From the NCBI GenBank assembly GCA_944326035.1, contig CALVCS010000003.1:124001-188000 (forward strand): a stretch of DNA of 64,000 bases, given 5' to 3'. The stretch is from an uncultured Alistipes sp. (lineage in GTDB: Bacteria > Bacteroidota > Bacteroidia > Bacteroidales > Rikenellaceae). The translations under genes were made by a program, and so were the position numbers. Positions 18,938 to 36,425 of the stretch are shown in pieces (the first letter of the stretch is position 1; each line of letters opens with the position of its first letter). The notes below the pieces were generated by a model. The model saw nothing but the letters and a program-made list of their open reading frames with translations. It ran no database searches and was not told where the DNA came from.

Positions 18938-20425
18938 TTATTTCTTGATCGTGACGTTGGTGGCCTTGTAGGTGTGTACCTGTTTTTTTCCGCCACCCGG
19001 TTCGATATACTTCATGTTTTCGAGCGTCACGTCGTCCACCTGTTGCAGCACGATAGCCGGACGATAGTCGCGTTTTTCAGCACGCAGGGTGATGTTGTCG
19101 AACAACACGCCTTTGGCATGACGAACATAGAAGCCCCAAGCCGGCAGCTCTTTGAACTGCGAGAATTCCGGATAGGAGGCTTCCATTTCGGGAATGCCGT
19201 CCAGATCGGCCGGTTTCAGCCCACGGTATGCGTAGTCGGGGTTCCCACCGCCCGGATAAACCAACTCGATGTTGCGCAGGGTAACGTTTTCGATGTCATG
19301 ACCTTCCAACCCTACGATGCTGGCCGGAGAGGTGTTGCGCGGCAGGTCTTCGATCGGGCCTTCGTAGTCGTACCCTTTGTCCGGTTTTTCGAGCGGAATT
19401 TCGCAGTACATGTTCTGGATCGTCACGTTTTTCATTGTGCCGACGGGACGTTCACCCAACCAACGTTTCCCGATACGCAGATAGATGGCGTTACCGGTGT
19501 TGTAGGCGTAGAGACTGTCCACCAGAATGTTTTCGATGTTCCCACCGTCAGGCGTGGCGATGGTGATGGCCGAACGATAGGTGTCGTATACCTTGTTGTT
19601 GATGATCTTCACATTTTTGTAACCCCCGGCCGATACGGTCCCGAATTTGATCCCGCTGGCGCTCGAACGGGCTACGTTGTTGCGGATTTCCACATTTTCG
19701 CACATCTGACGGTGATCGTGCGATTTGAGGCAGATCGCGTCGTCCGTAGCATCGATGAACGAGTTGGTCAGTTTGAAGTTGCGGCAGTCGACGATGTCGA
19801 TCCCGTCGTTGTTCCAGTAGGCCTTGCTGTCGACGGTGATGTTGTTGACCGTCATCTGGTCGCACTGGTCGTAGATCTGTACCCAGAAAGCCGAGTTCTT
19901 GAGCATGATCCCGTCGATGGTGACGTTTTTGCATTCGCGCAGATAGACCAGCGTCGGACGGATCGTCGGACGGTCGTATTTGAGGTCGTCCTTGATCAGC
20001 CCTTTCTGAATCAGGTCGATGCGGTTGTAGGACATTTCACGACCCTGGCCATCGATCACCCCTTTACCGGTGATCCCGATGTTTTCGCAGTTCAGGGCGC
20101 CGATCAGGGCCTGAGAGCTGGCGTTGAAGACTGTATCGTAGTCGTACGGGTTGGTGGAACCGACGATCACGGCCCCTTCGTTCAGGTGGATGGTGACGTT
20201 CGATTTCAGGTGGATGCTACCGGTCAGGTAACGACCTACGTAGAATACCAACCGGCCCCCGCCCTGAGCGTGAATGTAGTCGATGGCGGCTTGGATCGAG
20301 GTGGTATTCAGCGTGGTCCCGTTGGATTTGATGCCAAAATAGGAGGCATTGTAATCCTTGGCCTGGGCCACCGTGGCGAAAATCACCAGAAGCAGCGAGA
20401 AAAGGAAAGTTTTTGTCGTTCTCAT
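18938..20425 (-). CDS. GH28 family secreted glycosidase (last gene of the operon)
   Basis: A 495-residue right-handed beta-helix enzyme of family GH28 (polygalacturonase/rhamnogalacturonase type), acting on alpha-linked galacturonic acid. A Sec signal peptide ends at VAQA-KDY. Catalytic acids are Asn205-Asn206-Asp207 in YWNNDGIDIVDC and Asp228-Asp229 in ATDDAICLKSHD. The GHG histidine of classical polygalacturonases is replaced by RSSASGIKFGT, and the RIK element by YRSAITIATPDGG, which points to an exo-acting or rhamnogalacturonan-specific subgroup. It is the last of nine co-directional genes. Its closest relative is the GH28 at 31951-33435 (shared KSNGTTLNTT and IEPGGGKKQ near the C-terminus). 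Predicted periplasmic or surface-located; no lipobox is seen. Confidence 0.88.
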   Translation of the reverse strand: MRTTKTFLFSLLLVIFATVAQAKDYNASYFGIKSNGTTLNTTSIQAAIDYIHAQGGGRLVFYVGRYLTGSIHLKSNVTIHLNEGAVIVGSTNPYDYDTVFNASSQALIGALNCENIGITGKGVIDGQGREMSYNRIDLIQKGLIKDDLKYDRPTIRPTLVYLRECKNVTIDGIMLKNSAFWVQIYDQCDQMTVNNITVDSKAYWNNDGIDIVDCRNFKLTNSFIDATDDAICLKSHDHRQMCENVEIRNNVARSSASGIKFGTVSAGGYKNVKIINNKVYDTYRSAITIATPDGGNIENILVDSLYAYNTGNAIYLRIGKRWLGERPVGTMKNVTIQNMYCEIPLEKPDKGYDYEGPIEDLPRNTSPASIVGLEGHDIENVTLRNIELVYPGGGNPDYAYRGLKPADLDGIPEMEASYPEFSQFKELPAWGFYVRHAKGVLFDNITLRAEKRDYRPAIVLQQVDDVTLENMKYIEPGGGKKQVHTYKATNVTIKK

Positions 20426-20537
20426 GGTTTTTGGTTGTTTAGTATAATAATTATTCGTTTTGGTTGTTTCTTCCGTTTGTGGAGCGAGGAGGAGAGGCCC
20501 ACGGCGTGACCAGGACTTCCCGCTCCTCGTTTCCGTG

Positions 20538-23423
20538 TTAACCTTTACGGGCGTACAACGTAACCGGGCCGGCCAGCCCCAGCGATTGTACCGGTTGCGG
20601 ACGTCCTGGGCGGTTGGTCAGGCGTTGACCCTGTTCGTTGTCGAGCATCTCTTTCTGGATGTAGTTCCCCATGGTGGTGGTGACGCTCACTTCGATCTCG
20701 TTACGTCCTTGACGAAGGTGTTCGGCAATGTCGTAGAGACGACGACCGTACCATCTAACCCCACAATCTTCACCGTTGATCTTCAGCTCGGCGACCCCGA
20801 ACACTTTGCCCAGGTTCAGGACCGTACGGGCGGCCGGATCGCTCACCTCGAACGAAGCGCGGTAAATGGCCGTTCCGGTAAAGGAGACGTATTCGGTTTC
20901 CTTGAGGTCTTTGAGTTCATCCATCTCGATATTGATTGTCTGGCCGCTGAGGCTATTGCGCAGTTCGACCTGCCAGGGGCCGATCTGTACGGCGTCGGGC
21001 GCCGATGCCGGCAGCGGATTCCAGGTCGAGCCTTTGGACTCTTTGTTGAAGACGATCAGCAGCGCTTCGGCCGGTCCCAGATCGAAATCGGCATGGCCGT
21101 CGGTCAGCGGTAAGCGGTATTTTTCGCCGGTCTGCGGTTCCCATACCCAGGCGTAACGCCCCTGCGTCAGCTCTTTGGAGAAGGTGATGCGGGTGCGGTG
21201 GCTGTTGTGCAGGTGGCAGTTGGTCAGGTAGATGATCTGACTGCCGTCGTCGGTCCGGTAGCGCGTCTGCATCATATAGAGGTCGGGGTCGCTGAAGGTC
21301 AGATACGGTTTCAGATCGAATTTTTCCTGTACACTCGGCATCCAGGCCAGGAAGTCGTCGTCTTCGGGTTTGGCGATGACGTGGTAACGACCCGGCAGGG
21401 CTTTCAGTTTGGTGACCCATTCTTTGACTTCGGCGTCGTGAGCGACATGATCAGCCAGCCCCAGCGACATGCTGGGCTCTTTTTCGATGCTGATCACCGT
21501 ACCGCCCGATGCGGCGAACTCATACAGCTTGGCCAGCGTGGCCGGATACATGCGTTCGACGGCGACCAGTATCAGCGTGCGATAACGGCGTGTCCCATAG
21601 ACCAACCAGCCGTTTTTGACGTCGGAGGCCTGGATCACGCGTTCGGAGATATAGTCCGAGGCATTCCCGTTTTTGCACAGCGCCTCCCAAACGAACGAAT
21701 AGTACCGTACGTTGAGGTCGCTGGGGAAGGGCTCCTGTTGAACGCCCATGGTGGTCCACATGTCGTAGACGGGCGGCATCACCGCAATGTCGGCGAACAT
21801 CTCGGCGTTGGTCAGGATCGAACTCAGACGGGCCCGGTATTCGTTCAGCAGGTGGAAGTAGGGCCACCAGTTGTTGCGTTCGTTATAGAAGCCCCCGTAG
21901 ACGATCCAGCCCGGGAATTTGAAATTCGGTGCGTTGTAGTTGAACCCGTGCCAGATGGAGTGGGTGATCCCGGTCATGGCATTCATGTCGGAGCCCAGTT
22001 TCAGAAACTCCAGCGTGGCATTGAACACCCGGTAGGTGTTGGTCATCTCTTCGCAGCTGATCCACCGTTTGCCGGCCAGGTGTGCCCCCGAGGTGACGAA
22101 TTTGTTGACCATCGTGTAGGAGCGGCCCCGGCGGTAATCTTCGTACCCCATCTCTTCGCCGATGCGGTGCTGGAGGTAGTTGGTTGTCCACGATTCGCCT
22201 TCGGGAATGTCGAGGTACATGCTGCTGTCCAGCGGGAAGAATCCCCGGCCATACCCCTGAGCACGCGATTGGATGCCCTGTTTGTTGCACCAGGCGGTGA
22301 ACGTCTGCGTAAAGCGTTCCAGGAACAGTTCCGCTTTCACTTCGTCGAAATCGAAGCGAACCCGGTCGATCGTATCCTGGAATTCGGGGGTCATGTCGGC
22401 GCCGTAGTGGTAGTCGAGCACGTTGCCGAAGCTCCCGATTTCATAGAGAATGAACGGCAGATAGGGCATCAGGTCGTAGCCTTTGCGTTTGTGGAACTCT
22501 TCGGGCATGTCGTTGCACCAGTTGTGTCCGGCCAGCTCCATACTGTCGGTGAAGTAGGAACGGACATAGCCTTTGAGCGGACCGATTTTGGCTTCGATGG
22601 TGTCCGACATGTGGTTGAGGTACTTTTCGACCGCCTGTTTGTTGAGGTGGCTGAGGATCGGACCCATACCGCCCGGGGCCCCCTGGATAACCTTGGCGAA
22701 GCTATCGATGCGGACCAGCAGATAGAGGGCGTGTTTGCCTTCGGGAATGTCGATCGAGAGTTCGTTGCCGTCATCGAGCAGCTGGCTCAGATCCTTCACT
22801 TCGTCGAGGCTGCTCATCGGATCGGGAACCAGCAACAACGACAGCACTTTGTGTTGACGGCCCGTATACAGATGGCTCGATTTGGGATCGGATTCCAGCA
22901 AGAGGTTCTGCAGCGAGGTGTCGTAACGCATCGGTCCGGTCAATTTTTTCACGCCGATGCCGACCATCTGTGCGCGTTCATCGCCCTCCAGGAATTTCCC
23001 GCCGAAGGGGAAGCCCGTGCCGACCAGCAGATCGCAGGTCATGCCCAGTTTTTTTCCCTCGTCGAGCGCTACTTTCAGCATGTCGATCCATTCATCGCTC
23101 AGCCACGGTTTGGCCGGATAGCCCATGGGATCGCCCAAGGAGGGAAATTGTATCGTATTGATCTCGACGCCACCGATGCCGACGCCTTTGAGCATACGCA
23201 TTTCGCGTACGATTTCATCGGCTTCGACACGTCCGTCGGGCCACCACCAGCGGAAATAGGGATGGTATTTAAGTTCGGGGTTCCGGAAACGCTTGTAGAG
23301 TTCGCTGTCGAAACGCAGCTCGCCGCTTTTGACTGCGGCTTGAGCCAGCGTGGGGGAGGCGGCGACCAACAGGCCGGCGGCCCCTAACCAAGCACTTCGG
23401 ATTAAAAATTCTCGTCTGTTCAT
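20538..23423 (-). CDS. GH106 alpha-L-rhamnosidase-like enzyme
   Basis: A 961-residue secreted protein of the GH106 (alpha-L-rhamnosidase) type. The catalytic region covers about residues 45-820 and includes FRWWWPDGRVEADEI, GVEINTIQFPS, the acidic loop PEGESWTTN (about residue 408) and SCEEMTNTY (about residue 459), which hold the best candidates for the catalytic glutamates. A GH2-like sugar-binding sandwich follows (LNLGKVFGVAELKINGE, then WYGRRLYDIAEHL). The N-terminus NRREFLIRSAW with a later TLAQ-AAV cleavage site resembles a twin-arginine signal. It is followed by a GH28 gene 112 bases on and preceded by another at 20 bases. Family members remove rhamnose from pectic side chains; the exact linkage cannot be read from sequence. 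Confidence 0.85.
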   Translation of the reverse strand: MNRREFLIRSAWLGAAGLLVAASPTLAQAAVKSGELRFDSELYKRFRNPELKYHPYFRWWWPDGRVEADEIVREMRMLKGVGIGGVEINTIQFPSLGDPMGYPAKPWLSDEWIDMLKVALDEGKKLGMTCDLLVGTGFPFGGKFLEGDERAQMVGIGVKKLTGPMRYDTSLQNLLLESDPKSSHLYTGRQHKVLSLLLVPDPMSSLDEVKDLSQLLDDGNELSIDIPEGKHALYLLVRIDSFAKVIQGAPGGMGPILSHLNKQAVEKYLNHMSDTIEAKIGPLKGYVRSYFTDSMELAGHNWCNDMPEEFHKRKGYDLMPYLPFILYEIGSFGNVLDYHYGADMTPEFQDTIDRVRFDFDEVKAELFLERFTQTFTAWCNKQGIQSRAQGYGRGFFPLDSSMYLDIPEGESWTTNYLQHRIGEEMGYEDYRRGRSYTMVNKFVTSGAHLAGKRWISCEEMTNTYRVFNATLEFLKLGSDMNAMTGITHSIWHGFNYNAPNFKFPGWIVYGGFYNERNNWWPYFHLLNEYRARLSSILTNAEMFADIAVMPPVYDMWTTMGVQQEPFPSDLNVRYYSFVWEALCKNGNASDYISERVIQASDVKNGWLVYGTRRYRTLILVAVERMYPATLAKLYEFAASGGTVISIEKEPSMSLGLADHVAHDAEVKEWVTKLKALPGRYHVIAKPEDDDFLAWMPSVQEKFDLKPYLTFSDPDLYMMQTRYRTDDGSQIIYLTNCHLHNSHRTRITFSKELTQGRYAWVWEPQTGEKYRLPLTDGHADFDLGPAEALLIVFNKESKGSTWNPLPASAPDAVQIGPWQVELRNSLSGQTINIEMDELKDLKETEYVSFTGTAIYRASFEVSDPAARTVLNLGKVFGVAELKINGEDCGVRWYGRRLYDIAEHLRQGRNEIEVSVTTTMGNYIQKEMLDNEQGQRLTNRPGRPQPVQSLGLAGPVTLYARKG

Positions 23424-23443
23424 GATAGTGCGCTATGGCGGGT

Positions 23444-24931
23444 TTATTGAATGGTTACATGGTCGGTTTTATAGAAAAAGAGTTGCTCTTTCTGGTCGGC
23501 ATCCGGTTCGATCAGCCGGGTGTTGATCAGTTTGAGCCCCTGCACGTCATCGGTGACGATCCCCGGACGATAGTCGGGTTGGAGTGCGGTCATCGTTACG
23601 TTGTCGAAGGTGATGTTGCGGGCGTGGCGCAGGTAGAAACCCCAGGCCGGCAACTCCTTGAACTGTGAAAATTCCGGGTAACTTTTCCGCATTTCCGGAA
23701 TGCTGTCCAGTTCGGCCGGCGTCAGACCCACCTTGGCGTAGTAGGAATTGCCGCCACCCGGATAGACGATCTCGATGTTGCGCAGGGTGATATTTTCGAT
23801 CGGTAGGTCGGGCTGACCGATGATGCTGGCCGGCGAGATGTTGCGCGGCAGGTCTTCGATCGGGCCTTCGTAGTCGTAGCCTTTGTCGGGTTTGGTGGCC
23901 GGCACTTCGGCATAGACGTTTTGGATGGTCACGTTTTTCAACCAAGGGGTCTTGCCGCTGTTCCAGCGTTCACCGACGCGCAGGTAGATGACATTTCCGG
24001 TGTTGATCACCCGCAGCGTGTCGATCAGCACATCTTCGATCTGACCGCCGTCCACCGAGGCGAGCGTAATGGCCGATCGATAGGTGTCATAGACCTTGTT
24101 GTTCAGGATGCGGATGTTTTTGAAACGACCGCGCGAAGCCGTGCCGAATTTGATCCCGTTGGCGCCCGAACGAGCGACATTGTTGCGGATCAGCACGTTT
24201 TGGCACATGGCGTTGGGATCGTGCGATTTGAGGCAGATGGCATCGTCGGCAGCGTTGAAAAACGAGTTGGTGACCGTCACGTTTTCGCAGTCCACCACAT
24301 CCAGCCCGTCGTTGTTCCAGTAGGCGTTGCTTTCTACGCGAATATGATTGATGGTCAGCCCAATGCACTGGTCATAGGTCTGAACCCAGCTGCCGGAGTT
24401 GGTCAGTTGGACGCCTTCGATCTTGACGTTGCGGCAACTCCGGAAGTAGATAATCATCGGACGGGCTCCTTCCACCGGACGGTCCAGGCGCAGGTCGTCT
24501 TTCACCAGACCCTTATGGATCTGTTCCACCAGGTTGTAGGCCACTTCACGACCGCGACAGTTGATGGTGCCCAGCCCCGTGATACCGATGTTTTCCTGAT
24601 CTTTGGCCAGCAGAAAGGCCGTATTGAAACCCGGCATGCGGTCGTAGTCGTAGGGGTTGGTCGACCCCAGCAGAATGGCCCCGTCTTCCAGATGGAGCGT
24701 CACGTTCGAACGCAGATGGATCGTCCCCGAGACATAGCGGCCTAACGGAAAAATCAATCGTCCGCCCCCCTCTTCGTGAATCTTATCGACGGCGTATTGG
24801 ATAATGCGGGTATTGAGCGTCACTCCGTCGGGAACCGCCCCGAAATCATCCACCCGGTAATCTTTGGCAGAGGCAGACAGCGCCCCGAAGCTCAGCATGA
24901 GCACCCATAATCCTGTCGTAATATTTCTCAT
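23444..24931 (-). CDS. GH28 family secreted glycosidase
   Basis: A 495-residue GH28 beta-helix protein. The Sec signal peptide ends near LSASA-KDY. The catalytic set is Asn206-Asn207-Asp208 (YWNNDGLDVVDC) and Asp229-Asp230 (NAADDAICLKSHD). The classical GHG is replaced by RSGANGIKFGT. Compared with the other copies, it is intermediate between the pair at 18938/31951 and the pair at 25039/30414, for example FGAVPDGVTLNTR and INCRGREVAYN with a cysteine where the others have INGQG or IDGQG. It ends 20 bases before the start of the downstream GH106 gene and follows another GH28 gene by 107 bases. The expected target is galacturonic acid in pectin. Confidence 0.87.
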   Translation of the reverse strand: MRNITTGLWVLMLSFGALSASAKDYRVDDFGAVPDGVTLNTRIIQYAVDKIHEEGGGRLIFPLGRYVSGTIHLRSNVTLHLEDGAILLGSTNPYDYDRMPGFNTAFLLAKDQENIGITGLGTINCRGREVAYNLVEQIHKGLVKDDLRLDRPVEGARPMIIYFRSCRNVKIEGVQLTNSGSWVQTYDQCIGLTINHIRVESNAYWNNDGLDVVDCENVTVTNSFFNAADDAICLKSHDPNAMCQNVLIRNNVARSGANGIKFGTASRGRFKNIRILNNKVYDTYRSAITLASVDGGQIEDVLIDTLRVINTGNVIYLRVGERWNSGKTPWLKNVTIQNVYAEVPATKPDKGYDYEGPIEDLPRNISPASIIGQPDLPIENITLRNIEIVYPGGGNSYYAKVGLTPAELDSIPEMRKSYPEFSQFKELPAWGFYLRHARNITFDNVTMTALQPDYRPGIVTDDVQGLKLINTRLIEPDADQKEQLFFYKTDHVTIQ

Positions 24932-25038
24932 CTCTTTCTGTTTTATGGTTTCAAACTTTTGTGTGGCTCGCTTGGCGTTCGTTTGGGCAGTCTTTCGGTT
25001 TCGGAGGAGACGCGAGGGGCGTCTCGAGAAGAGGGGGC

Positions 25039-26544
25039 CTATTGGGGCGCCTCTTCGATATGGATATCGGAGGAGCGGTTCGAGACGATCTGCTCTTTGT
25101 CGCCCGGTTCCGGTTCGGTGATTTTCAGGTTGCGGAAGGTGATGCCGTGGACGTCATCCAGCACGATGGGTACCCGGTAATCCTTGCGCAAAGCCTTGAT
25201 GCTCACATTGTCGAAGGTAATATCTTTGGCGTGGCGAATGTAAAAACCCCAGGCCGGCAGCTCCTTGAACATCGAGAATTCGGGATAGGCATCCGGACGT
25301 TCGGGGACTTTGCTCAGCTCCTCGGGGGTCGTTCCCACGTGTGCGTAGAACGGGTCGCCGTCCCCCGGATAGACGATCTCGATGTTGCGCAGGGTCATGC
25401 GTTCGATCGGAATGTCGGGCATGCCCACGATCGACGACGGGGAGACATTGCGCGGCAGGTCTTCGATCGGGCCTTCGAACGGATACCCCGGGTCGGGTTT
25501 GCCGAGGGGTACTTCGGCGTAGACATTGCTGATCGTGATGTCGCGCATATAGGGTTTTTTGCCGCTGCTCCAGCGGTTGCCGATCACGAAGAAGAAGATG
25601 TTGCCGGTGTTGATGGCCCGCAGACCGTCCACTTCGATGTTTTCGATTTCGGCTCCGTCTACGGCTGCGAAGGTGACGGCCGAGCGATAGGTATTGTAAA
25701 TGGTGATGTTGGTGATCTTGAAGTTTTTGAATCCGCCCCGCGATACGGTGCCGAATTTCACGCCGTTGGCGCTCGAACGGCCGACACAGTTATCGACAAC
25801 CACGTTTTGGCAGGTATAGTCGGGGTGGTGAGATTTGAAGCAGATCACGTCGTCGGCGGCGTCGAACCAGCAGTTACGGATGGTAACGCCGTCACAGTCC
25901 ACGATATCGATCCCGTCGTTGTTCCAGAACGAGTTGCCGTCCACCTTGAGGCCTTCGACCGAAACGTTTTTGCAACGTTCGTAGGTGTTGGTCCAGGAAC
26001 CGGGAGCCCGCAAGGTGATATCGCGGATGGTGATGTCTTCGCATTCGAGGAAGTAGATATTCTGGTGGCGCCACTGGTCGGGACGGTCGTAACGGAACGT
26101 GTCTTTGAGCAGACCGCGGTGGATGAGGCTCACCACATTATTGGCCGAGGTCCAACCCTGCCCATTAATTTCGCCCTGTCCGGTAATGCCGATGCCTTTC
26201 TGGTTCAGGCTGAAGACCAGGGCCGGCCAGGTATTGTGTACGTCGTAATCGAGCGGATTGGCCGAACCCAACAGTACGGCTCCCCGTTCGAGGTGGAGTG
26301 TCACGCCCGATTTAAGGTAGATGCTGCCGGTCAGGTAGCGTCCGGCCGGGAAGATGAGTCGTCCGCCGCCGGCTGCACTGATCTGGTCGATGGCCTGTTG
26401 GATGGAGTGGGTGTTTTGGGAGATGCCGTCGGCACAGATTCCCCAATCGGCCACTTGATAATCTTTGGCCTGAACGTGTGGGGACAGAAGCGTCCACAGA
26501 CCTGTAATCAATAGTATATAAAAGGTTCTCATCGTTTGGGCCAT
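25039..26544 (-). CDS. GH28 family secreted glycosidase, start coupled to GH106 stop
   Basis: A 501-residue GH28 enzyme. Catalytic Asn208-Asn209-Asp210 (FWNNDGIDIVDC) and Asp231-Asp232 (DAADDVICFKSHH) are intact. Two starts are possible. The ATG at 26544 overlaps the stop of the upstream GH106 gene as TAATG; the ATG at 26532 (MRTFYILL) would give a more standard signal peptide, cleaved near VQA-KDY in either case. The overlap suggests translational coupling, so I keep the first. The segment RSSANGVKFGTVSRGGFKN marks it as a close relative of the copy at 30414. Predicted role as for the others: exo-type cleavage of galacturonosyl linkages outside the cytoplasm. Confidence 0.86.
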   Translation of the reverse strand: MAQTMRTFYILLITGLWTLLSPHVQAKDYQVADWGICADGISQNTHSIQQAIDQISAAGGGRLIFPAGRYLTGSIYLKSGVTLHLERGAVLLGSANPLDYDVHNTWPALVFSLNQKGIGITGQGEINGQGWTSANNVVSLIHRGLLKDTFRYDRPDQWRHQNIYFLECEDITIRDITLRAPGSWTNTYERCKNVSVEGLKVDGNSFWNNDGIDIVDCDGVTIRNCWFDAADDVICFKSHHPDYTCQNVVVDNCVGRSSANGVKFGTVSRGGFKNFKITNITIYNTYRSAVTFAAVDGAEIENIEVDGLRAINTGNIFFFVIGNRWSSGKKPYMRDITISNVYAEVPLGKPDPGYPFEGPIEDLPRNVSPSSIVGMPDIPIERMTLRNIEIVYPGDGDPFYAHVGTTPEELSKVPERPDAYPEFSMFKELPAWGFYIRHAKDITFDNVSIKALRKDYRVPIVLDDVHGITFRNLKITEPEPGDKEQIVSNRSSDIHIEEAPQ

Positions 26545-29423
26545 TATCCGATTTGGTAAAGGGTGACGGGACCGACCAGACCCATGGAACTGAGCGGCTG
26601 GTTTTTGGTGCCTTCCATGGTCCAGTATTGGGCCGTTTTATTGTCTTTCAGGGTTTTCGTATAGTTCAGCAGGGTGGTGGTCACCTTGACCTCGATCCGG
26701 TTGGCGCCGGGTTTCAGGCTGGAGGCCACGTCGTAGGTCTGATCGCCGTACCAGCGGACGCCCAGCTCCTGATCGTTGACCTTCACCTCCGCGACACCCC
26801 ATACCCGGCCCAGATTGAGCACCTTGTCGGTCGGGTCGTTCACTTCGACCGTCGTGCGATAGGTCACCGTACCGGTGAAGTTGACGAATTCGGTCTCTTT
26901 CAGGTCCGTGGGATCGTCCATGTGCGTGGTTTTCGTCCACCCTTCGCGGCTGTGTTTCAGCTCGACGTCCCAGTCGCGCAGGGTTTGCGTCCCGACCCCT
27001 TCGACCGGCAGTTGACGCCACAGGGGCCCCTTCTTGTTTTTGTCGAAGACGATCAGGCGCGAGTCGGCCGGGCTCATCTCCAGGACATAGCTGCCGTCGT
27101 TCAGTTCGATGCGATAGCGTTCGCCGGTGTGCGTATCCCAAACCCAGGGGTAACGGCCCCGGGTAATTTCGGGGGCAAAGGTCACCTTGCCTTTGTAGCG
27201 TTTATGCAGGTGGCTGTGGACAAAGAAGAAAATTTCGCTGCCGTCGTCGGCCTGATAGCGGTTCTGCATGAAATAGGGATCGGTCGTTTCGATGCGGACG
27301 AACGGTTCGAGCCCATATTTTTCCTGCACGTTCGTGAACCAGGTGATAAAGTCGTTGTCGGCCGGAATATCCAGCAAGACGAACCGGTCCGGGAATGCTT
27401 TCAGTTTTTCGACCCATTGCTGCACCTCGCGGTTGCGGTTTTCGTAGTCCCGATAACCCAGACAGCGGTCCGGATAGCGTTCCACACAGAAGACCCGACC
27501 GCCCTGTTGCACGAATTCGTACATTTTGGCCAGGGTTTCCGGGGCCAGGCCCTTGACACCGGCCAGGAAGAGCGTTCCGTACTGTTTGGGACCGTAGCAG
27601 AGTTTGCCGTTTTTGACGGTCGAATCGGCCAGGACGATTTCCGACGTGTAGTCGCAACCATGGCCGTTTTTGATCATGGCTTCCCACAGCAGCGTCATGT
27701 AGGGTACGTTCAGTCGTACCGGGAACGGTTCGGTCTGTACGCCCCAGGTGGTCCACATGTCGCCGTAAGCCGGCAGAATGGCAATGTCGGTATACATGTC
27801 GGCGTTTTGCAGCACCGACGACACGCGCGCCTTGTAGGTGTTGATATAGGAGACGTAGGGCCACCAGTTGTTGTGTTCGCTGAAGTAGGCACCATAACGG
27901 ACCCATCCCGGGAAGGGAATGTTCAGCGGGGAGTAGTTCACGCCGATCCAGAACGACTGGGTAACGCCCGAAATGAGGCTCATGTCCGAGCCCAGCTTCA
28001 GGAACTCCAGCGTGGCGGCGAAAACCTGGTAGGTATTGGTCATCTCTTCGCAGCTGACCACCCGTTTCCCGGTCAGGTGGGCCGCCGAAGAGACGAATTT
28101 GTTGATCATGGTGTAACCGCGTCCACGACGGTAGTCTTCATTGGACATCTCTTCGCCCAGCCGGTGTTTGAGCCAGTTGGTCGTCCACGATTCGCCTTCG
28201 GGAATGTCGTATCCGATGCTGCTCTCCAGCGGGAAGAAACCGCGACCGTAGGCCTGGGCGCGCGACATCACCCCCAGATCTTTACACCATTGCAGGTAGG
28301 TGGCATTGAACCGTTCACGCAGCAACTCGGCTTTGGTCAGTTCGAAGTCGTAGCGCATCCGGTTGTTTTCGTCCTTGAAGCGCGGGGTCTTTTCCACCCC
28401 GTAGTCGAAGTTGTAGACATCCCCCAGACGGCCCGTTTTGAACATCATGTAGGGCATGTAGGGGACAATGTCGTAACCGCGTCGGCGGATGAACTCTTCC
28501 CGGAAGTCGGTCGTCCAGTTCATGCCCTCCAGCTCCATCGAGTCGGTAAACATCGTCCGCATACGGCCTTTGAGCGGACCGATTTTGGCCTGGATCGTAT
28601 CGGACATGTGGTCCAGGTATTTGCGCACGGCGGTTTTGTCCAGATGGTTGAGAATCGGCCCGGCGGCTCCCGGAGCCCCGTTGATCACGCAGGCGAAGGC
28701 ATTGACCTGCACCACGGCATAGAAGTAGTGTTTGCCGGCGGGAACCTGCACGTGAATGATCTCGTTGTCTTTCTGGTCGGTCAGGTCGATCGCCTGGTCG
28801 ATGTTGTCCATGGGCGAGGGGACCAGGCTCAACGAGATGATCTTCATGGTCCGCACCGGAGAGGTCTCGGTGGCATGGGGATCGACCTTGGCGAAGAGGG
28901 CGAACTGCGAGATTTCGTATTCGCAGGGGCCGTCCAGCTCCTGGGCGTCGACCAGACGCACCATGGCGCGTTCATCGCCTTGCAGGTATTCGGCGCCGAA
29001 AGGCCAGCCCGAACCGACCAGCAGATCACAGGTCATGTCCAGACGTTTGGCTTCCTCGAAGGTGACGTTGAGCATCTCGATCCATTTGTCGCTGAGCCAT
29101 GGGGTCGCCTCTTTGAGCATCCCCATGTCGTTGTCTCGAGGCGGCAATTGGATGGGATTGATCTCCACGCCACCGATCCCGGCCTTTTTCATCACTTGCA
29201 GTTCGCGACGCAGTTCGTCGGCCTCCAAAATGTCGCCGTTCCACCACCACCGTACGAAGGGATGGTAGATCGACGCCGGTTCTTTGAAGGCGTTGTACAG
29301 GTCGCTATCGAAACGCAGCGAGTCGCTTTTGAGGGCCCATTTGGCTAATGTGGGCGACGTCGAGGCCAAAATACCCCCTGCGGTGAGCCAGGCGCTGCGG
29401 ATGAGGAAGGTTCTTCTGTCCAT
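26544..29423 (-). CDS. GH106 alpha-L-rhamnosidase-like enzyme
   Basis: A 959-residue paralog of the GH106 proteins at 20538 and 33552. The conserved blocks occur at the same distances: FVRWWWNGDILEADEL, GVEINPIQLPP, PEGESWTTN (about 408), SCEEMTNTY (about 458), and the C-terminal sandwich with LNLGRVWGVAEVKVNDQE. The N-terminus MDRRTFLIRSAWLTAGGI is a twin-arginine-like signal with cleavage near TLA-KWA. Overall it looks closer to the 33552 copy than to the 20538 copy. Its stop codon shares one base with the ATG of the next gene, a GH28. Upstream lies the truncated GH28-like gene, with a 192-base gap that is large for this operon. Confidence 0.85.
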   Translation of the reverse strand: MDRRTFLIRSAWLTAGGILASTSPTLAKWALKSDSLRFDSDLYNAFKEPASIYHPFVRWWWNGDILEADELRRELQVMKKAGIGGVEINPIQLPPRDNDMGMLKEATPWLSDKWIEMLNVTFEEAKRLDMTCDLLVGSGWPFGAEYLQGDERAMVRLVDAQELDGPCEYEISQFALFAKVDPHATETSPVRTMKIISLSLVPSPMDNIDQAIDLTDQKDNEIIHVQVPAGKHYFYAVVQVNAFACVINGAPGAAGPILNHLDKTAVRKYLDHMSDTIQAKIGPLKGRMRTMFTDSMELEGMNWTTDFREEFIRRRGYDIVPYMPYMMFKTGRLGDVYNFDYGVEKTPRFKDENNRMRYDFELTKAELLRERFNATYLQWCKDLGVMSRAQAYGRGFFPLESSIGYDIPEGESWTTNWLKHRLGEEMSNEDYRRGRGYTMINKFVSSAAHLTGKRVVSCEEMTNTYQVFAATLEFLKLGSDMSLISGVTQSFWIGVNYSPLNIPFPGWVRYGAYFSEHNNWWPYVSYINTYKARVSSVLQNADMYTDIAILPAYGDMWTTWGVQTEPFPVRLNVPYMTLLWEAMIKNGHGCDYTSEIVLADSTVKNGKLCYGPKQYGTLFLAGVKGLAPETLAKMYEFVQQGGRVFCVERYPDRCLGYRDYENRNREVQQWVEKLKAFPDRFVLLDIPADNDFITWFTNVQEKYGLEPFVRIETTDPYFMQNRYQADDGSEIFFFVHSHLHKRYKGKVTFAPEITRGRYPWVWDTHTGERYRIELNDGSYVLEMSPADSRLIVFDKNKKGPLWRQLPVEGVGTQTLRDWDVELKHSREGWTKTTHMDDPTDLKETEFVNFTGTVTYRTTVEVNDPTDKVLNLGRVWGVAEVKVNDQELGVRWYGDQTYDVASSLKPGANRIEVKVTTTLLNYTKTLKDNKTAQYWTMEGTKNQPLSSMGLVGPVTLYQIG

Positions 29424-29615: not shown

Positions 29616-30371
29616 TTATTTTTTGGCTTTCAGCTGTTTGCCGTTGGGCGTTTTGCAGCCCGAGATGTTGACGTTGGTCGACGTGCCGGCCGATGCCAGG
29701 GCATCGCCCGTGGTGTCGAAGTAGCAATCCGTCATGCTGAAGCCCGTGCAACCCGAGAAGATAACCCCTTGGCTGTTGGCCGTTTGACGGCTGGTGACGG
29801 CCAGGTTGCTCAGCGTAACGTCTTTGCAGTCGCTGTACACCATCACGTTGCCGCAAGGATTCTGCAGGTTGATCCCTTCGATCTTGACGTTCGAGCAGTT
29901 TTTGAGGCTGATCAGAGCCGGGCTGGCCTGAGCCACGCTTTCTTTCAGGTTGCCTTTGTTGATCTGGGTCTGAACGTTGCCCAACAGCAGCGTACCTTGG
30001 CCTTGGATCACCCCTTTCCCGATAACGGCGATATTTTCCTGCCCTTCGGCGCAGATGATCGCTTTGGTATCACCGGCAGCGGTGTAGTCATACGGGAAGG
30101 TTACCCCTACCAGTACCGCTCCTTCGTGGAGTTGGATGGTGACATTGGATTTGAGGTTGAGCGTACCGGTCAAGTAGCGTCCTACGTAGAATTCGAGCGT
30201 ACCGCCACCCTGTTCGCTGATGTGGTCGATGGCTTTCTGGATGGAGCGGGTATTCAGCGTGGAACCGTCCGATTTAACCCCGAAGTAGGAGGCTTTGTAG
30301 GTGACTTGGGCCGAGAGACTCAGCGTGCAGACACTCGCCAGGGCGAGGGCGATAAATTTCAGCTTGTTCAT
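29616..30371 (-). CDS. Half-length GH28-like secreted protein lacking key catalytic acids
   Basis: A 251-residue protein with a clear Sec signal (MNKLKFIALALASVCTLSLS, then AQ) and an N-terminal half that aligns with the GH28 copies at 18938 and 31951 (KASYFGVKSDGSTLNTRSI, FYVGRYLTGTLNLKSN). The alignment continues through the catalytic zone, but NNDG has become NSQG (Asp to Gln201), DD has become GD (Gly222-Asp223), and the KSHD segment is ASAG. The protein then stops, about 240 residues short, with a short basic tail. The frame has no stop or frameshift and the following 192 bases hold no remnant of the missing half, so it reads as an intact short gene, not a fresh pseudogene. It could be a non-catalytic binding protein. 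A decaying gene is the alternative. Confidence 0.75.
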   Translation of the reverse strand: MNKLKFIALALASVCTLSLSAQVTYKASYFGVKSDGSTLNTRSIQKAIDHISEQGGGTLEFYVGRYLTGTLNLKSNVTIQLHEGAVLVGVTFPYDYTAAGDTKAIICAEGQENIAVIGKGVIQGQGTLLLGNVQTQINKGNLKESVAQASPALISLKNCSNVKIEGINLQNPCGNVMVYSDCKDVTLSNLAVTSRQTANSQGVIFSGCTGFSMTDCYFDTTGDALASAGTSTNVNISGCKTPNGKQLKAKK

Positions 30372-30413: not shown

Positions 30414-31913
30414 TTATTTGATCTCGATGTTCTGGGATTTGTAGTCGAAGAGCTGGTTTTTCCCTTCGCTGTTCGGTTCGATATACTGCATGCCTTCGAA
30501 CGTACCGCCGTTCACGTCATCCAAAACGATGGCCGGACGATAATCCGAAGCCAGGGCTTTGAACGTTACGTTCTTGAAGTGGATGCCGTTGGCGTGGCGG
30601 ATGTACATCCCCCAGGCGGGCAGCTCTTTGAACTGCGAGAATTCGGGGTAGCGGTCGGGCTGTTCGGGAATACCGTCCAGTTCTTCGGGGGTCAGACCCA
30701 CTTTGGCGTAGTAGGGGTTCCCGGCACCCGGGTAGACGATTTCGACGTTTTCGAGCGTCACGTTTTCGATTTTGTATTCGGGCAGACCCACGATGCTGGC
30801 CGGCGAGATGTTACGCGGCAGGTCTTCGATCGGGCCTTCGTAGTTGTAGCCGGCATCGGCTTTGTGGAACGGTACTTCGGCGTAGACATTCTTGATGGTG
30901 ATGTCTTTCATGACGGGTTCTTTCCCGCGGCTCCAACGGTTACCGATACGCAGGTAGATCACGTTCCCGGTGTTGATCGAGCGAACACCGTCTACCAGGA
31001 TGTTTTCGATGTGGGCTCCATCCACGGCAGCGAAGGTGATGGCCGAACGATAGGTGTCGTAGATGGTCATGTTCGTCACGGTGATGTTTTTGAACCCACC
31101 GCGCGATACGGTCCCGAATTTCAGACCGTTGGCGCTCGAACGACCTACGCAGTTGTCGATCAGGACGTTTTCGCACATGTGTTCGAAGCTGTGCGATTTG
31201 AGGCAGAGCACGTCATCGGCAGCGTCGAAGAACGAGTTTTTGATCACTACGTCTTTGCAGTCCACGATGTCGATCCCGTCGTTGTTCCAGTACGATTTGC
31301 TGTCGACGTAGATGTTATCCACGTACAGATTTTGGCACTGGTCGTAGGTCTGGTTCCAGCTGGCCGGGTCGCGCAGGGTGATATCCTTGATGGTGATGTT
31401 TTTGCATTCGCGGAAGTAGATGTTCTGCGGACGGTTCCATTCGCGGGGACGGTCCAGGGTGATGAGGTCGTTCCCGGGGTTGTAGCCGCGGTGGATCAGG
31501 TTCAAACGGTTGTTGGCCGTGATGAAGCCCCGGCCGTTGATCACGCCTTGGCCCGTGATACCGATGTTTTCCTGCTTGATGGCGAAAATCAGGGAGTGCC
31601 AAGCGCATATCTTTTCATACGTATAGTCGAGCGGGTTGGTCGAGCCCAAGAGGGTAGCACCCCGTTCGAGGTGGATCGTCACGTTCGATTTCAGGTAGAT
31701 CGAACCGGTGACGTAGCTGCCGGCGTGGAAGACCAGGCGTCCGCCGCCATTTTCATGGATGAAGTCGATGGCGTACTGAATGGTGTTGGTGTTCAGAGCG
31801 ATGCCGTCGGCTACGGCCCCGAAGTCCTGAACGTCATAGTCTTTGGCCGAGAGCTGGAAAGTGGCCAGCAGGGCGACGGCCAGCGAAAGTAATTTTGTCA
31901 TGCTTGCTTTCAT
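30414..31913 (-). CDS. GH28 family secreted glycosidase
   Basis: A 499-residue GH28 enzyme with Sec signal (cleavage near LSA-KDY). The ATG at 31913 is used; an alternative at 31901 (MTKLLSLA) gives an equally good signal. Catalytic residues are Asn210-Asn211-Asp212 (YWNNDGIDIVDC) and Asp233-Asp234 (DAADDVLCLKSH). Shared features with the 25039 copy, such as RPQNIYFRECKNITIKD and RSSANGLKFGTVSRGGFKN, indicate a fairly recent duplication. It starts 37 bases after the end of the preceding GH28 gene and ends 42 bases before the truncated GH28-like gene, so it is firmly inside the operon. Confidence 0.88.
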   Translation of the reverse strand: MKASMTKLLSLAVALLATFQLSAKDYDVQDFGAVADGIALNTNTIQYAIDFIHENGGGRLVFHAGSYVTGSIYLKSNVTIHLERGATLLGSTNPLDYTYEKICAWHSLIFAIKQENIGITGQGVINGRGFITANNRLNLIHRGYNPGNDLITLDRPREWNRPQNIYFRECKNITIKDITLRDPASWNQTYDQCQNLYVDNIYVDSKSYWNNDGIDIVDCKDVVIKNSFFDAADDVLCLKSHSFEHMCENVLIDNCVGRSSANGLKFGTVSRGGFKNITVTNMTIYDTYRSAITFAAVDGAHIENILVDGVRSINTGNVIYLRIGNRWSRGKEPVMKDITIKNVYAEVPFHKADAGYNYEGPIEDLPRNISPASIVGLPEYKIENVTLENVEIVYPGAGNPYYAKVGLTPEELDGIPEQPDRYPEFSQFKELPAWGMYIRHANGIHFKNVTFKALASDYRPAIVLDDVNGGTFEGMQYIEPNSEGKNQLFDYKSQNIEIK

Positions 31914-31950
31914 GGTGAGGTTAGTTTGATTTATGTTTTGAATTCTTTAT

Positions 31951-33435
31951 TTATTTCTTTTGAACGAGTCCGGTAGTTTTATAGGTGTGGAGTTGTTTCT
32001 TGCCGCCACCCGGTTCGATATAGGTGATATCTTCGAGCAGCGCCCCATCGACCTGTTGCAGCACCATGGCCGGACGATAGTCGCGGGCGAGGGCTTTGAA
32101 CGTGATGTTTTCCAGGGTCAGGTTTTTGGCGTGACGAACGTAGAGACCCCAGGCCGGCAGCTCTTTGAACTGCGAGAATTCGGGATAGCGGTCGGCTTGT
32201 TCGGGAATGGCATCCAGATCGGCCGGTTTCAGCCCGCAGTAGGCATAGTTGGGGTTCCCGCCGCCGGGATAGACCAGTTCGATGTTGCGCAGGGTGACGT
32301 TTTCGATGTCATGGCCTTCCAGCCCCACGATGCTGGCCGGCGAGATGTTGCGCGGCAGGTCTTCGATCGGCCCTTCGTAGTCGTATCCGGCATCGGGTTT
32401 GGTGGCCGGGATTTCGCAGTACATGTTCTGGATGGTCACGTTTTTGAGGGTGCCCACACTGCGTCCTTCGCCCATCCAGCGTTTGCCGATACGCAGGTAG
32501 ATGGCATTGCCGGTGTTGTAGGCGTAGAGACTGTCGACCAGAATGTCTTCCACCTGGCCACCGTCGGGCGTGGCGATGGTGATGGCCGAACGGTAGGTGT
32601 CGTACACCTTGTTGTTGATGATGCGGATGTTTTTGTAGCCGCCGGCCGACACCGTTCCGAATTTGATCCCGCTGGCGCTCGAACGGGCCACGCAGTTCCG
32701 GATTTCGATGTTTTCGCAACGGCTGTTGGCGTCATGTGATTTGAGGCAGATGGCGTCGTCCGTAGCGTCGATGAAGCTGTTGAGCACCTTCATGTCTTTG
32801 CAGTCCACGATGTCCAGCCCGTCGTTGTTCCAGTAGGCTTTGCTGTCGACGGTGATGCCGTCCAGCACGATGTTGCTGCACTGATCGTAGGTCTGTACCC
32901 AGTCGCAGGTGTTTTTGATCAGGATGCCCTGGATTTTGACGTTATCGCATTCGCGCAGGTAGATGCCCCGCGGACGGCGGCGACTGGGACGGTCGTATTT
33001 GAGATCGTCGTCGAGAATGCCCTGATGGATCTGGTCCATCATATTGTAGGCCAGGGCCCGGCCCTGCCCGTCGATCACGCCTTTCCCGGTGATGGCGATG
33101 TTGTCCACCTCCTTGGCATAGATCAGCGCGCAGTAAGGAGTTTCCAGGTTGTAGTCGTAAGGGTTCGTCGAACCCACCAGGACGGCCCCTTCATTGAGGT
33201 TGATCGTCACGTTGGGTTTCAGAAAGAGGGTCCCTGTCAGGTAGCGTCCCACATAGAATTGCAGAGTTCCACCCCCCTTTTCACTGATGTAGTCGATGGC
33301 TTTTTGGATGGCCGTCGTGTTGAGGGTGGTCCCGTTGGACTTGATGCCGAACAGGGAGGCGTTGTAGTCTTTGGCCGATACCTGGGTCAGGCAGAGCAGG
33401 CCGAGCAGCAGCGCCGCAAGGTTACGTTTGTTCAT
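31951..33435 (-). CDS. GH28 family secreted glycosidase
   Basis: A 494-residue GH28 enzyme with Sec signal (MNKRNLAALLLGLLCLTQVS, then AKDY). Catalytic Asn203-Asn204-Asp205 (YWNNDGLDIVDC) and Asp226-Asp227 (DATDDAICLKSHD) are present. It is the sister of the copy at 18938: both have GIKSNGTTLNTT, VARSSASGIKFGTVSAGGYK, a GKRW loop and a C-terminal YIEPGGGKKQ. The sisters sit as the second gene and the last gene of the same operon. The gap to the upstream GH106 is 116 bases. The expected substrate is an alpha-galacturonosyl bond in rhamnogalacturonan or homogalacturonan. Confidence 0.88.
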   Translation of the reverse strand: MNKRNLAALLLGLLCLTQVSAKDYNASLFGIKSNGTTLNTTAIQKAIDYISEKGGGTLQFYVGRYLTGTLFLKPNVTINLNEGAVLVGSTNPYDYNLETPYCALIYAKEVDNIAITGKGVIDGQGRALAYNMMDQIHQGILDDDLKYDRPSRRRPRGIYLRECDNVKIQGILIKNTCDWVQTYDQCSNIVLDGITVDSKAYWNNDGLDIVDCKDMKVLNSFIDATDDAICLKSHDANSRCENIEIRNCVARSSASGIKFGTVSAGGYKNIRIINNKVYDTYRSAITIATPDGGQVEDILVDSLYAYNTGNAIYLRIGKRWMGEGRSVGTLKNVTIQNMYCEIPATKPDAGYDYEGPIEDLPRNISPASIVGLEGHDIENVTLRNIELVYPGGGNPNYAYCGLKPADLDAIPEQADRYPEFSQFKELPAWGLYVRHAKNLTLENITFKALARDYRPAMVLQQVDGALLEDITYIEPGGGKKQLHTYKTTGLVQKK

Positions 33436-33551
33436 TTTGATAAGAGCTGTTTGGTTAGTTTAGGTTATCGCTCTGAGGGGTCGGACGCGGGGGAACCGAC
33501 CGCTTCAGAAGAGGATAAGCCCCGGAGACCATTCTCCAGGGCTTAGTAGGG

Positions 33552-36425
33552 TTACTTATATAAGGTGACGGGACCGACCATGCCCATCGACTGAACGAGT
33601 TGTTCTTTCCGTCCGGCCGTAAATTTCTGGGCGGTTTCGTTGTCGGTCAGGGTGTGCATGTAGTTCCCCATGTTGGTGACGACGCGTACTTCGATCTGGT
33701 TGGTACCCGGGCGAAGCAGGTCGGCGATGTCGTAGATGCGGTAGCCGAACCATTTCACGGGGCAGGCCTCTCCGTTGACGTAGAGTTCGTTGATACCCCA
33801 GACTTTCCCCAAATTGAGAATATGTTCGCCGGGGTTTTCCACTTCGAACGAGGTGCGATAGACAACCGTTCCGGTGAAGTTGACGAATTCGGTCTCTTTC
33901 AGATCGACGGGAGAATCCATGTGGGTGGTCTTGACCCAACCTTCGCGGGAGTGGTGCAGTTCGACTTCCCAATCGGTCAGGGTTTGGGTGTCGCTGCCCG
34001 AAACCGGCAGCGGATTCCACATCGGGCCCTTCTTTTCCCGGTCGAAGACGATCAGACGCGATTCGGCCGGACCCATATTCAGGTCGTAACTGCCGTCCTC
34101 GTTCAGTTCGATGCGGTATTTTTCGCCGGTATTGGCGTCCCAAACCCACGGATAGCGCTTGCGGGTGATCGTTTCCGAGAAGGTGATCCGGGAACGTTTC
34201 GGTTCGTGCATGTGGGCGTTCAGGAAGAAGAACAGTTGGCTGTCGTCGTCGGTGACGTAGCGGTTCTGCATCAGGAACCGATCGGGCGTATCGATGGTCA
34301 GATAGTGCGGAATGTCGTACTTTTCCATCACCTCTTTATACCATTCCAGGTAGTGGCCGTCGGCGGGTTTTTCGAGCAGGATGAACTGATCGGGGAAGGT
34401 TTTGAGTTTTTCCACCCACTCTTTGACCTCCTGGTCGCGTTGTTGGTAGTTGAGCAGCCCCAGCGATTTGGAGGGGTAGCAGCCGATGCAGAAGACCCGA
34501 CCGCCTTGCGAAACCATCTCATACAGTTTGGCCAGGGTGGCGGCGCTGGTGCCGGATACTTCGATCAGGAAGAGCGTGCCGTAGGCTTTGGGCCCGTAGC
34601 AGAGTTTCCCGTCGCGCACTTCGCTCTGACCGATCATGATTTCGGTCGTGATGTCGGCGGCTCCGCCGTTTTTGTGGATCGCTTCCCACACCAGCGGCAT
34701 GTACGGAACATTGAGCTCTTCGGGGAAGGGATCGGTCTTGACGCCTTCATCGGTCCACATGTCGTAGTTGGCCGTCAGCAACGCGATGTCGGTATACATG
34801 TCGGCGTTCTGCAACTGCGAGGAGAGACGGGCTTTGTACTGGTTGAGGTATTTGAAGTACGGCCAGTAGTTGTTGTTTTCGTTGTGGTAGGAGCCGTACT
34901 GCACCCATCCCGGGAAGGGTGCTTCGGGGGGCGAGTAGTTGAAACCGTGCCATACCGAGTGCGTTACCCCGGAGATGATGCTCATGTCGGACCCGATCTT
35001 CAGGAACTCGAGCGTGGCGTTGAAGACGTTGTAGGTGTTGGTCATCTCTTCGCAGCTCATGATCCGGCGGCCGGCCAGGTGCATGGCCGAAGAGACAAAC
35101 TTATTGATATACGTATAGCCTCGTCCGCGGCGATAGTCTTCGTCGCCCATCTCTTCGCCCAGACGGTGTTTCAACCAGTTCGAGGTCCAGGATTCGCCTT
35201 CGGGGATGGTATAGTAGAGGCTGTTTTCCAATTGGAAGAGCCCGCGGCCATAGGCCTGGGCACGCGAGTCGACGCCTTTGTCACGGCACCATTCCACATA
35301 GGTCATGATGTAGCGTTCGAACAGCAGTTCGGCTTTGGTGAGTTCGAAGTCGAAGCGCATGCGGTTGAGTTCGGCCTGCAGTTCGGGGCTTTTGGTTGCG
35401 CCTACGTTGCCTTTGATGACGGCTCCCAGACGTCCCGTCTTCAACAGAATGAACGGCAGATAGGGCATCATATCGTAACCGCGGCGTTTTTTGAACTCTT
35501 CGGCGAAGTCCGAGGTCCAGTTGCTGCCTTCCAGTTCGAGACTGTCGGCGAAGAAGGCGCGGATATGCTCTTTGAGCGGGCCGGTTTTGCGTTCGATGGT
35601 ATCGGACATGTGGTCCAGATAGCGGCGAACGGCCCCTTTATCCATGTGGTTGAGGATGGTTCCGGCGGCTCCGGGGGCTCCGTTGATGACGCTGGCGAAG
35701 GCGGTGATTTTGACCGTCGCATATAAATAGTGTACGCCGGCGGGTACATCGACACGGATAATTTCGTCGTGGCGCTTGTCGGAGACATCCACGGCATCCG
35801 CGAGGCTGTTCATCGGATCGGGCACCAGTTTCAGGGAGATGATCTCGAATTCGCGACGGGGGTTGGGGTCGGTGACCTGCGGGTCGACGTTTTTGAAGAT
35901 GGCCAGTTGGGACACTTCATAAGTGGTGGGACCTTCGATCTTTTCGGCGTCGATGTAGACAGCCTGGGCGCGGTCGTTGCCTTTGAGGTCTTCCGAGCCG
36001 AAGGGCCATCCCGAGCCGACGATCAGGTCGCAGGTCATATCCAGTTTTTTGGCTTCGGCGAAGGTGACGTTGAGCATGTCGATCCATTCGTCGCTGAGCC
36101 ATTTGAGGGATTTTTTACCCAGGTCGTCGCCGGTGGTCGGGAAGGAGATCGGGTTGATTTCCACTCCGCCGATGCCGGCATTTTTGAGCAGGTGCAGTTC
36201 GCGCACCAATTCGCCGGCTTCCACTTTGTCTCCGTTCCACCACCAACGTACGAAGGGATGGTATTTGGAGGCCGGGTTTTGGAACTGTTTGTAAAGATCG
36301 GAGTCGAAGCTCAGCTCGTTGCGTTTGGCCTTGACGGCGACGTCGGCCAGGGCGGGGGATACGGCGATCACCAGGGCTCCTCCGGCCAACATGGCGCTGC
36401 GCTTCAGAAAGGTTCTTCTGTCCAT
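33552..36425 (-). CDS. GH106 alpha-L-rhamnosidase-like enzyme (first gene of the operon)
   Basis: A 957-residue GH106-type protein opening the nine-gene operon. The N-terminus MDRRTFLKRSAMLAGGALV is the best twin-arginine match of the three (RRTFLK), with cleavage near PALA-DVA. Conserved blocks are FVRWWWNGDKVEAGEL, GVEINPISFPT, PEGESWTSN (about residue 409), SCEEMTNTY (about 459), and the C-terminal sandwich LNLGKVWGINELYVNGE with WFGYRIYDIADLL. Family members hydrolyse alpha-L-rhamnosyl bonds in pectin. Upstream is a 0.9-kb region shared with a divergent GH2 gene, which must contain the operon promoter. I see no regulator or transporter gene on either side. Confidence 0.86.
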   Translation of the reverse strand: MDRRTFLKRSAMLAGGALVIAVSPALADVAVKAKRNELSFDSDLYKQFQNPASKYHPFVRWWWNGDKVEAGELVRELHLLKNAGIGGVEINPISFPTTGDDLGKKSLKWLSDEWIDMLNVTFAEAKKLDMTCDLIVGSGWPFGSEDLKGNDRAQAVYIDAEKIEGPTTYEVSQLAIFKNVDPQVTDPNPRREFEIISLKLVPDPMNSLADAVDVSDKRHDEIIRVDVPAGVHYLYATVKITAFASVINGAPGAAGTILNHMDKGAVRRYLDHMSDTIERKTGPLKEHIRAFFADSLELEGSNWTSDFAEEFKKRRGYDMMPYLPFILLKTGRLGAVIKGNVGATKSPELQAELNRMRFDFELTKAELLFERYIMTYVEWCRDKGVDSRAQAYGRGLFQLENSLYYTIPEGESWTSNWLKHRLGEEMGDEDYRRGRGYTYINKFVSSAMHLAGRRIMSCEEMTNTYNVFNATLEFLKIGSDMSIISGVTHSVWHGFNYSPPEAPFPGWVQYGSYHNENNNYWPYFKYLNQYKARLSSQLQNADMYTDIALLTANYDMWTDEGVKTDPFPEELNVPYMPLVWEAIHKNGGAADITTEIMIGQSEVRDGKLCYGPKAYGTLFLIEVSGTSAATLAKLYEMVSQGGRVFCIGCYPSKSLGLLNYQQRDQEVKEWVEKLKTFPDQFILLEKPADGHYLEWYKEVMEKYDIPHYLTIDTPDRFLMQNRYVTDDDSQLFFFLNAHMHEPKRSRITFSETITRKRYPWVWDANTGEKYRIELNEDGSYDLNMGPAESRLIVFDREKKGPMWNPLPVSGSDTQTLTDWEVELHHSREGWVKTTHMDSPVDLKETEFVNFTGTVVYRTSFEVENPGEHILNLGKVWGINELYVNGEACPVKWFGYRIYDIADLLRPGTNQIEVRVVTNMGNYMHTLTDNETAQKFTAGRKEQLVQSMGMVGPVTLYK

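Follow-up and report, generated by a model that had tools for sequence, protein, structure and literature searches.

A nine-gene GH106/GH28 operon of Alistipes as the probable enzyme half of a split polysaccharide-utilisation locus

The stretch of DNA considered here, hereafter the window, comprises 64,000 nucleotides from the genome of an uncultured Alistipes sp. and carries an operon of nine genes for GH106-like and GH28-like proteins. The operon is a real and well-conserved array built on an uncharacterised module, and its nine genes probably constitute the enzyme half of a polysaccharide-utilisation locus that was split and enlarged in Alistipes. It leads to an enzyme module that is widely conserved and for which no functional description was found in the papers searched.

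Organisation of the operon

The nine open reading frames (18938-36425; A to I in the direction of transcription) are all located on the minus strand, contain no internal stops, and are separated by 116, 37, 42, 192, -1, 107, 20 and 112 bases. The three long genes match the Pfam family GH106 (PF17132) with 153-158 bits (cut-off 29) and the other six match GH28 (PF00295) with 46-73 bits (cut-off 22.9), so that three genes are GH106-like and six GH28-like, five of the latter being full-length and one short. These data confirm the preliminary description of a nine-gene GH106/GH28 operon, including the spacing of -1 to 192 bases between its genes, although the family labels mask a wide divergence from characterised members. 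All GH28 matches of the 2.3-Mb window genome fall inside the operon. The GH106 matches are scattered over this genome, and those of the operon score far below the best of them.

A hairpin followed by a T-run 3' of the last gene (18885-18935, minus strand; -20.6 kcal/mol, z -5.4) represents an intrinsic terminator that closes the operon. The intergenic region at the other end (36426-37348) is the expected promoter site, and no match to the promoter pattern of Bacteroides was found upstream of gene A. The operon is flanked downstream by a 2-hydroxyacid dehydrogenase gene and upstream by a divergent gene for a GH2 glycosidase of 1037 amino acids (37349-40462, plus strand), which adjoins the operon in each of the three Alistipes genomes that carry it and is a possible partner. 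Neither a SusC/SusD pair nor a sensor gene was found in the flanks, as had been stated earlier. The nearest TonB receptor gene (10489-12975, minus strand) was rejected as the transporter of the operon, since it has no adjoining SusD and is not of SusC-type length. Likewise, the nearest two-component genes, a LytTR/histidine kinase set at 45-47 kb of the window, were rejected as its regulator because they adjoin an efflux operon.

The TonB-dependent receptor gene at 10489-12975 adjoins a gene for L-fucose isomerase (13610-15469, minus strand) that reaches the equivalog cut-off of its family. Three tandem GH29 alpha-L-fucosidase genes (54453-58928, plus strand) encode proteins that are 62-68% identical among themselves and 31-42% identical to the products of module-linked GH29 genes of other genera. 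A single gene at 57-4319 (minus strand) encodes 1420 amino acids in which glycogen synthase and glycogen phosphorylase domains are fused.

Conservation in Alistipes

Nine Alistipes genomes were compared, including the window genome (G000), the complete genome G003 and the genome G007 (locus L001). G007 carries all nine genes in unchanged order with 85-97% protein identity, and dN/dS between the two sets is 0.03-0.11. G003, a third species, keeps eight of the nine gene types: genes A to E are followed by a further GH106 gene in the place of F, and then by G, H and I. Its operon is flanked by the same neighbours, namely the divergent GH2 gene and a cytochrome c assembly gene. The operon is therefore an old and maintained gene array, and a recent transfer was rejected, as three Alistipes genomes carry it between the same neighbours.

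An ancestral module in Bacteroidota

When 84,980 species genomes were scanned with the GH106 proteins of the operon, all three of them serving as queries, 79 loci were retrieved. Outside Alistipes, the order GH106-GH28-GH28-short GH28 is found in Prolixibacteraceae, Dysgonomonadaceae and Tannerellaceae, and in permuted form in Sphingobacteriaceae. Genes A to D are this ancient module, which is common to Bacteroidota; literature searches yielded no published description of the gene set. In 20 of the 79 loci, a SusC gene is located upstream on the same strand, usually together with SusD and often with genes for FecR and an ECF sigma factor. This linkage is not universal, as some rumen relatives are without it. 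In a number of rumen loci (L046, L051, L041, L062 and others), which have no linked SusC/SusD, a gene for an ADP-ribosylglycohydrolase-family protein lies beside the GH106 gene.

The genes that follow or face the module elsewhere encode GH92, GH29, a beta-helix protein, M28 and S15 peptidases, together with one more companion enzyme. The latter was labelled GH18 on the basis of Pfam, an identity that was dropped after the exosialidase 6RZD proved to be its best solved homologue. Since 6RZD is presumably the founder of GH156, the companion is referred to as GH156-like. The module set of Sphingobacterium is preceded by genes for a rhamnose isomerase-type protein and an FGGY kinase. Furthermore, five Sphingobacterium loci (L025, L032, L039, L053 and L075) contain genes for a PhyH-family dioxygenase and a xylose-isomerase-like protein between SusD and GH106, insertions that perhaps serve a modified sugar.

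The transporter and the split of the locus

The window contains no SusC/SusD pair, the presence of which in the same cluster is the mark of a polysaccharide-utilisation locus. The window genome contains just two SusD_RagB matches above the cut-off. On contig C12, a SusD gene is accompanied by a SusC gene. Over its length, the encoded SusC protein shares 47% identity with the one that belongs to the module locus of Tannerella forsythia. In the SusC tree, this copy is nested in the module-linked clade (SH-aLRT 100) and is separate from the copy on contig C11 and from the other Alistipes SusC proteins. Among the nine Alistipes genomes, a cognate SusC (at least 50% identity, nearly full length) is found only in the operon carriers G000, G003 and G007, and so is the GH156-like protein, which is 55-60% identical to a Proteiniphilum relative. 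Operon, SusC and GH156-like protein co-occur in three of three carriers versus none of the six other genomes (Fisher p 0.012, from nine genomes only).

In G003, the operon occupies 2.304-2.323 Mb, and the GH156-like gene is found some 0.4 Mb away, at 1.875-1.911 Mb, together with six SusC/SusD pairs. The six pairs (L126-L128; G003:C1:1876841-1910657) belong to one subfamily and occupy 34 kb in both orientations, possibly as a glycan-variant or specificity-switching array. In G007, a SusC/SusD pair lies beside the GH156-like gene, followed by genes for a beta-helix protein, a GH3-like and a GH123-like protein; the counterpart of this beta-helix protein in the window genome has a GH141 domain. 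In the window genome itself, the GH156-like gene adjoins the cut edge of contig C13, the first 100 bases of which (L131:1-100) encode a SusD C-terminus, VHHNPALTYPAASMTLLIPDQEMQTNNLCVQN (compare ...TYSVANMTLQIPEAETLYNPLCVQN in L015). Because C13 begins inside this C-terminus, another SusC/SusD pair was probably lost in the assembly gap. The contig also carries a GH92 gene and a gene for a GH106 protein that is 60% identical to a GH106 of the T. forsythia locus. The earlier proposal of a transporter encoded outside the operon is corroborated by the module-linked SusC/SusD on C12 and by the second SusD tail at the edge of C13.

The ancestral locus would have had the order (ECF sigma)-FecR-SusC-SusD-(GH156-like)-GH106-GH28-GH28-short GH28-(GH29/GH92/other enzymes), an arrangement that Prolixibacteraceae, Dysgonomonadaceae, Tannerellaceae and Sphingobacteriaceae have kept. 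In the simplest reading, which is limited mainly by the small number of genomes, the Alistipes locus broke after the GH156-like gene and ahead of the first GH106 gene, placing SusC/SusD and the GH156-like gene elsewhere. The detached enzyme module would then have gained more distant paralogs (E to I). The locus for sugar uptake is thus one that is split at a definable point and of which the transporter and enzyme halves still co-occur across species, and enzymes without an adjoining SusC/SusD need not imply a different strategy. In the resulting pathway, the SusC/SusD system would import an oligosaccharide or glycopeptide for the enzymes described below.

The GH106 proteins

The three GH106-like proteins are encoded by genes A (957 amino acids, 33552-36425), E (959 amino acids, 26544-29423) and H (961 amino acids, 20538-23423), all on the minus strand. 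A, an alpha-L-rhamnosidase by family, is orthologous to R1 of the conserved module. E, whose ortholog in G003 has 100/100 support, is an old paralog close to A, and H belongs to a second GH106 clade (R2) together with Parabacteroides and rumen proteins. The catalytic glutamate pair of BT0986, E461 and E593, aligns to E297 and E459 of A and is invariant in 34 GH106 relatives, and the best fold matches of the GH106 model are two solved GH106 rhamnosidases (Foldseek E 1e-49 or better). Among the NCBIfam families, A is nearest to that of BT4145 (NF049897), although its score of 312 bits remains below the equivalog cut-off of 1300. These proteins are predicted to remove terminal alpha-L-rhamnose in the periplasm.

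A, E and H begin with a twin-arginine-like motif, RRxFL, which is present in 48 of 83 relatives, unlike the GH28 proteins of the operon, which have ordinary hydrophobic signals. TatC was found in all nine Alistipes genomes. A lone GH106-like paralog that is 56% identical to A is encoded elsewhere in the window genome (L097; G000:C7:203201-206074), and its ortholog in G003 also lies outside the operon.

The full-length GH28 proteins

The five full-length GH28-like proteins are encoded on the minus strand by B (494 amino acids, 31951-33435), C (499 amino acids, 30414-31913), F (501 amino acids, 25039-26544), G (495 amino acids, 23444-24931) and I (495 amino acids, 18938-20425). B and C correspond to the module genes G1 and G2; I falls into the G1 clade, F, which is missing from G003, groups with the G2 clade, and G forms a separate Alistipes clade. 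The structure model of B (pLDDT 91) matches GH28 exo-enzymes with a right-handed beta-helix in Foldseek searches. In NCBIfam, B is nearest to the BT4146 family (NF049898) with 223 bits, which is below the equivalog cut-off of 500.

The aspartate triad D205, D226 and D227 (N-x-D, DD) is invariant in all 44 aligned full-length GH28-like sequences. In the same 44 sequences, the position of the canonical GHG histidine is occupied by alanine and the R-x-K positions hold neither arginine nor lysine, so that the polygalacturonase signature is absent. Four genuine rhamnogalacturonan galacturonidases of the BT4146 family are also without the canonical histidine and have threonine there. Since the missing histidine and the residues K232, K258, R319, R434 and H435, together with the aspartate triad, are common to the full-length GH28 proteins and the BT4146 branch, the former are plausible uronate-binding exo-enzymes. 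An insert at about 341-371 with invariant K346, D348, E354 and R362 is absent or not conserved in the BT4146 family. As the histidine and R-x-K are missing and this insert is absent from the BT4146 relatives, the substrate may differ from that of these relatives. The full-length proteins would take off terminal alpha-linked uronic acid, likewise in the periplasm, and the several paralogs could cover differently decorated or linked units.

The short GH28-like protein

Gene D (29616-30371, minus strand; module gene Gs) encodes a beta-helix protein of 251 amino acids. The preliminary description called it a truncated GH28, which is right as to length and wrong as an inference about its origin. 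D matches the solved structure 4MXN (Parabacteroides merdae PARMER_00599, 247 amino acids) over nearly its full length (E 1e-67), and homologues adjoin full-length GH28 genes in more than 30 of the retrieved loci (32-34 counted). These homologues are mostly 240-258 amino acids long, and about 190 in rumen relatives. The dN/dS between two Alistipes copies of D is 0.072, similar to that of neighbouring genes and indicative of purifying selection. The D family is conserved and not a remnant, and the interpretation of D as a pseudogene was rejected on the basis of these homologues, the 4MXN match and the selection on the gene. No functional paper on PARMER_00599 or 4MXN was found in the literature, and this uncharacterised structure is now tied to a fixed set of genomic partners.

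D, having lost the catalytic acids, most likely binds the glycan or helps a full-length partner. Alternatively, it could be enzymatically active, or a structural partner that the full-length GH28 proteins cannot do without, and not a binding protein. The strongly conserved N-terminal half and the location beside a full-length GH28 gene in nearly all loci agree with such a role, which is nevertheless somewhat doubtful given that the region expected to hold the aspartate triad is divergent and lacks it, and that the C-terminal half varies freely and is shortened in the rumen relatives.

The substrate

The preliminary description proposed a dedicated rhamnogalacturonan-stripping array. In this rival reading, GH106 and GH28 would dismantle the Rha-GalA backbone of rhamnogalacturonan-I (RG-I) from dietary pectin, as BT4145 and BT4146 of Bacteroides thetaiotaomicron do when working successively on RG-I oligosaccharides (PMC8002723). 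This RG-I pair represents the closest named families, the active-site basic residues are common to the BT4146 branch, and the window genome encodes both rhamnose isomerase (RhaA) and uronate isomerase (UxaC). The proximity of the active-site residues to BT4145/BT4146 supports a putative exo-attack on a glycan containing rhamnose and uronate. The kinship of the enzymes suggests that rhamnose and uronate alternate in it, in line with the preliminary description. However, the scores are far below the equivalog cut-offs, no pectin lyase is present among the top 25 families listed for 60 module-neighbour proteins, nor are the rhamnogalacturonan lyases PL9/PL11 or GH105, and the window genome has no GH28 outside the operon and only one weak GH88/GH105-type match. 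A dedicated rhamnogalacturonan array is doubtful, as the companions elsewhere are GH92, GH29, GH156-like proteins and peptidases, under ECF/FecR regulation. In addition, Tannerella forsythia carries the locus, an oral protein feeder that is unlikely to encounter plant pectin in its niche. A pectic RG-I substrate is therefore unlikely. The companion genes appear to fit a glycoprotein glycan better than pectin, because they would act on mannose, fucose, a sialic-acid-like sugar and peptides, and no pectin lyase stands among the commonest neighbour families listed.

The most interesting candidate is formed by the protein O-glycans of Bacteroidota, which the split locus would dismantle, allowing these bacteria to feed on the glycoproteins of their relatives, dead or alive. 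These glycans share a core of mannose, rhamnose and glucuronic acid, with Tannerella as an exception (PMC12871550). The O-glycan of B. fragilis carries alpha-GlcA and alpha-2-O-methyl-Rha on alpha-Man, with fucose and alpha-GalNAc further out (PMC8698959). The match with the enzymes is suggestive: GH106 could account for rhamnose, the GH28-like proteins for the alpha-uronate, GH92 for mannose, the GH29 and GH141-like proteins for fucose, the GH123-like protein for hexosamine, the GH156-like protein for a nonulosonic acid and the peptidases for the peptide. It is also imperfect, because GH123 is known for acting on beta-linked GalNAc and the B. fragilis glycan has alpha-GalNAc. Moreover, Tannerella has the locus though it is excepted from the shared core, and the O-glycan assignment is at present rather improbable. 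If true, it would provide the first route for recycling this abundant class of microbial glycoproteins. We know of no GH28 that acts on glucuronate so far, and the GH28-like group of the operon would then be the first.

Origin of the copies

Trees assign A, B, C and D to the module genes R1, G1, G2 and Gs, and distribute the remaining copies over the clades given above. AU tests reject the clades expected for first-position GH28 genes (B+F+I, p 2e-55; B+F, p 7e-5) and for second-position ones (C+G, p 0.002), as well as a single clade for all five GH28 proteins (p 0.002) or all three GH106 proteins (p 3e-5). The groupings A+E (p 0.075) and C+F (p 0.20) are not rejected. The earlier proposal, drawn from the repeating family order along the operon, that a single [GH106, GH28, GH28] block was recently amplified in tandem and that one copy decayed is refuted by these p values unless gene conversion was extensive, and is almost untenable since the copies are merely 48-75% identical, occur alike in three species and include a short gene that is conserved under purifying selection. 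The repetition seen in the family names does not go back to successive duplications of a block.

Comparison with known systems

The GH106 proteins of the operon share the overall fold and the catalytic glutamate pair with BT0986 (PDB 5MQM) and the Novosphingobium rhamnosidase (6Q2F), from which they differ by an identity of only 16-17%, a shorter protein and the twin-arginine-like N-terminus. PARMER_00599 (4MXN) is a solved homologue of D of the same length that is named a putative glycosyl hydrolase, yet its family is without the aspartate triad.

BT4145 (GH106) and BT4146 (GH28) of the B. thetaiotaomicron RG-I locus represent the same two families as the operon, and the GH28 proteins resemble the BT4146 branch in the aspartate triad, K258, R319, R434, H435 and the lost canonical histidine. 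The scores (312 versus 1300 and 223 versus 500) and a unique conserved insert at 341-371 set the two systems apart. In contrast to the RG-I locus, the operon contains three GH106 genes and five GH28 genes with a short paralog, has no linked SusC/SusD, and belongs to a module without lyases among the neighbour families listed.

The Tannerella forsythia locus (L011, L012) has the order FecR-SusC-SusD-GH106-GH106-GH28-GH92. It differs from the Alistipes system in that its parts are linked in one operon, with a single GH28 gene and without the short one, and it shares with Alistipes the cognate SusC/SusD, both GH106 types, GH28 and GH92.
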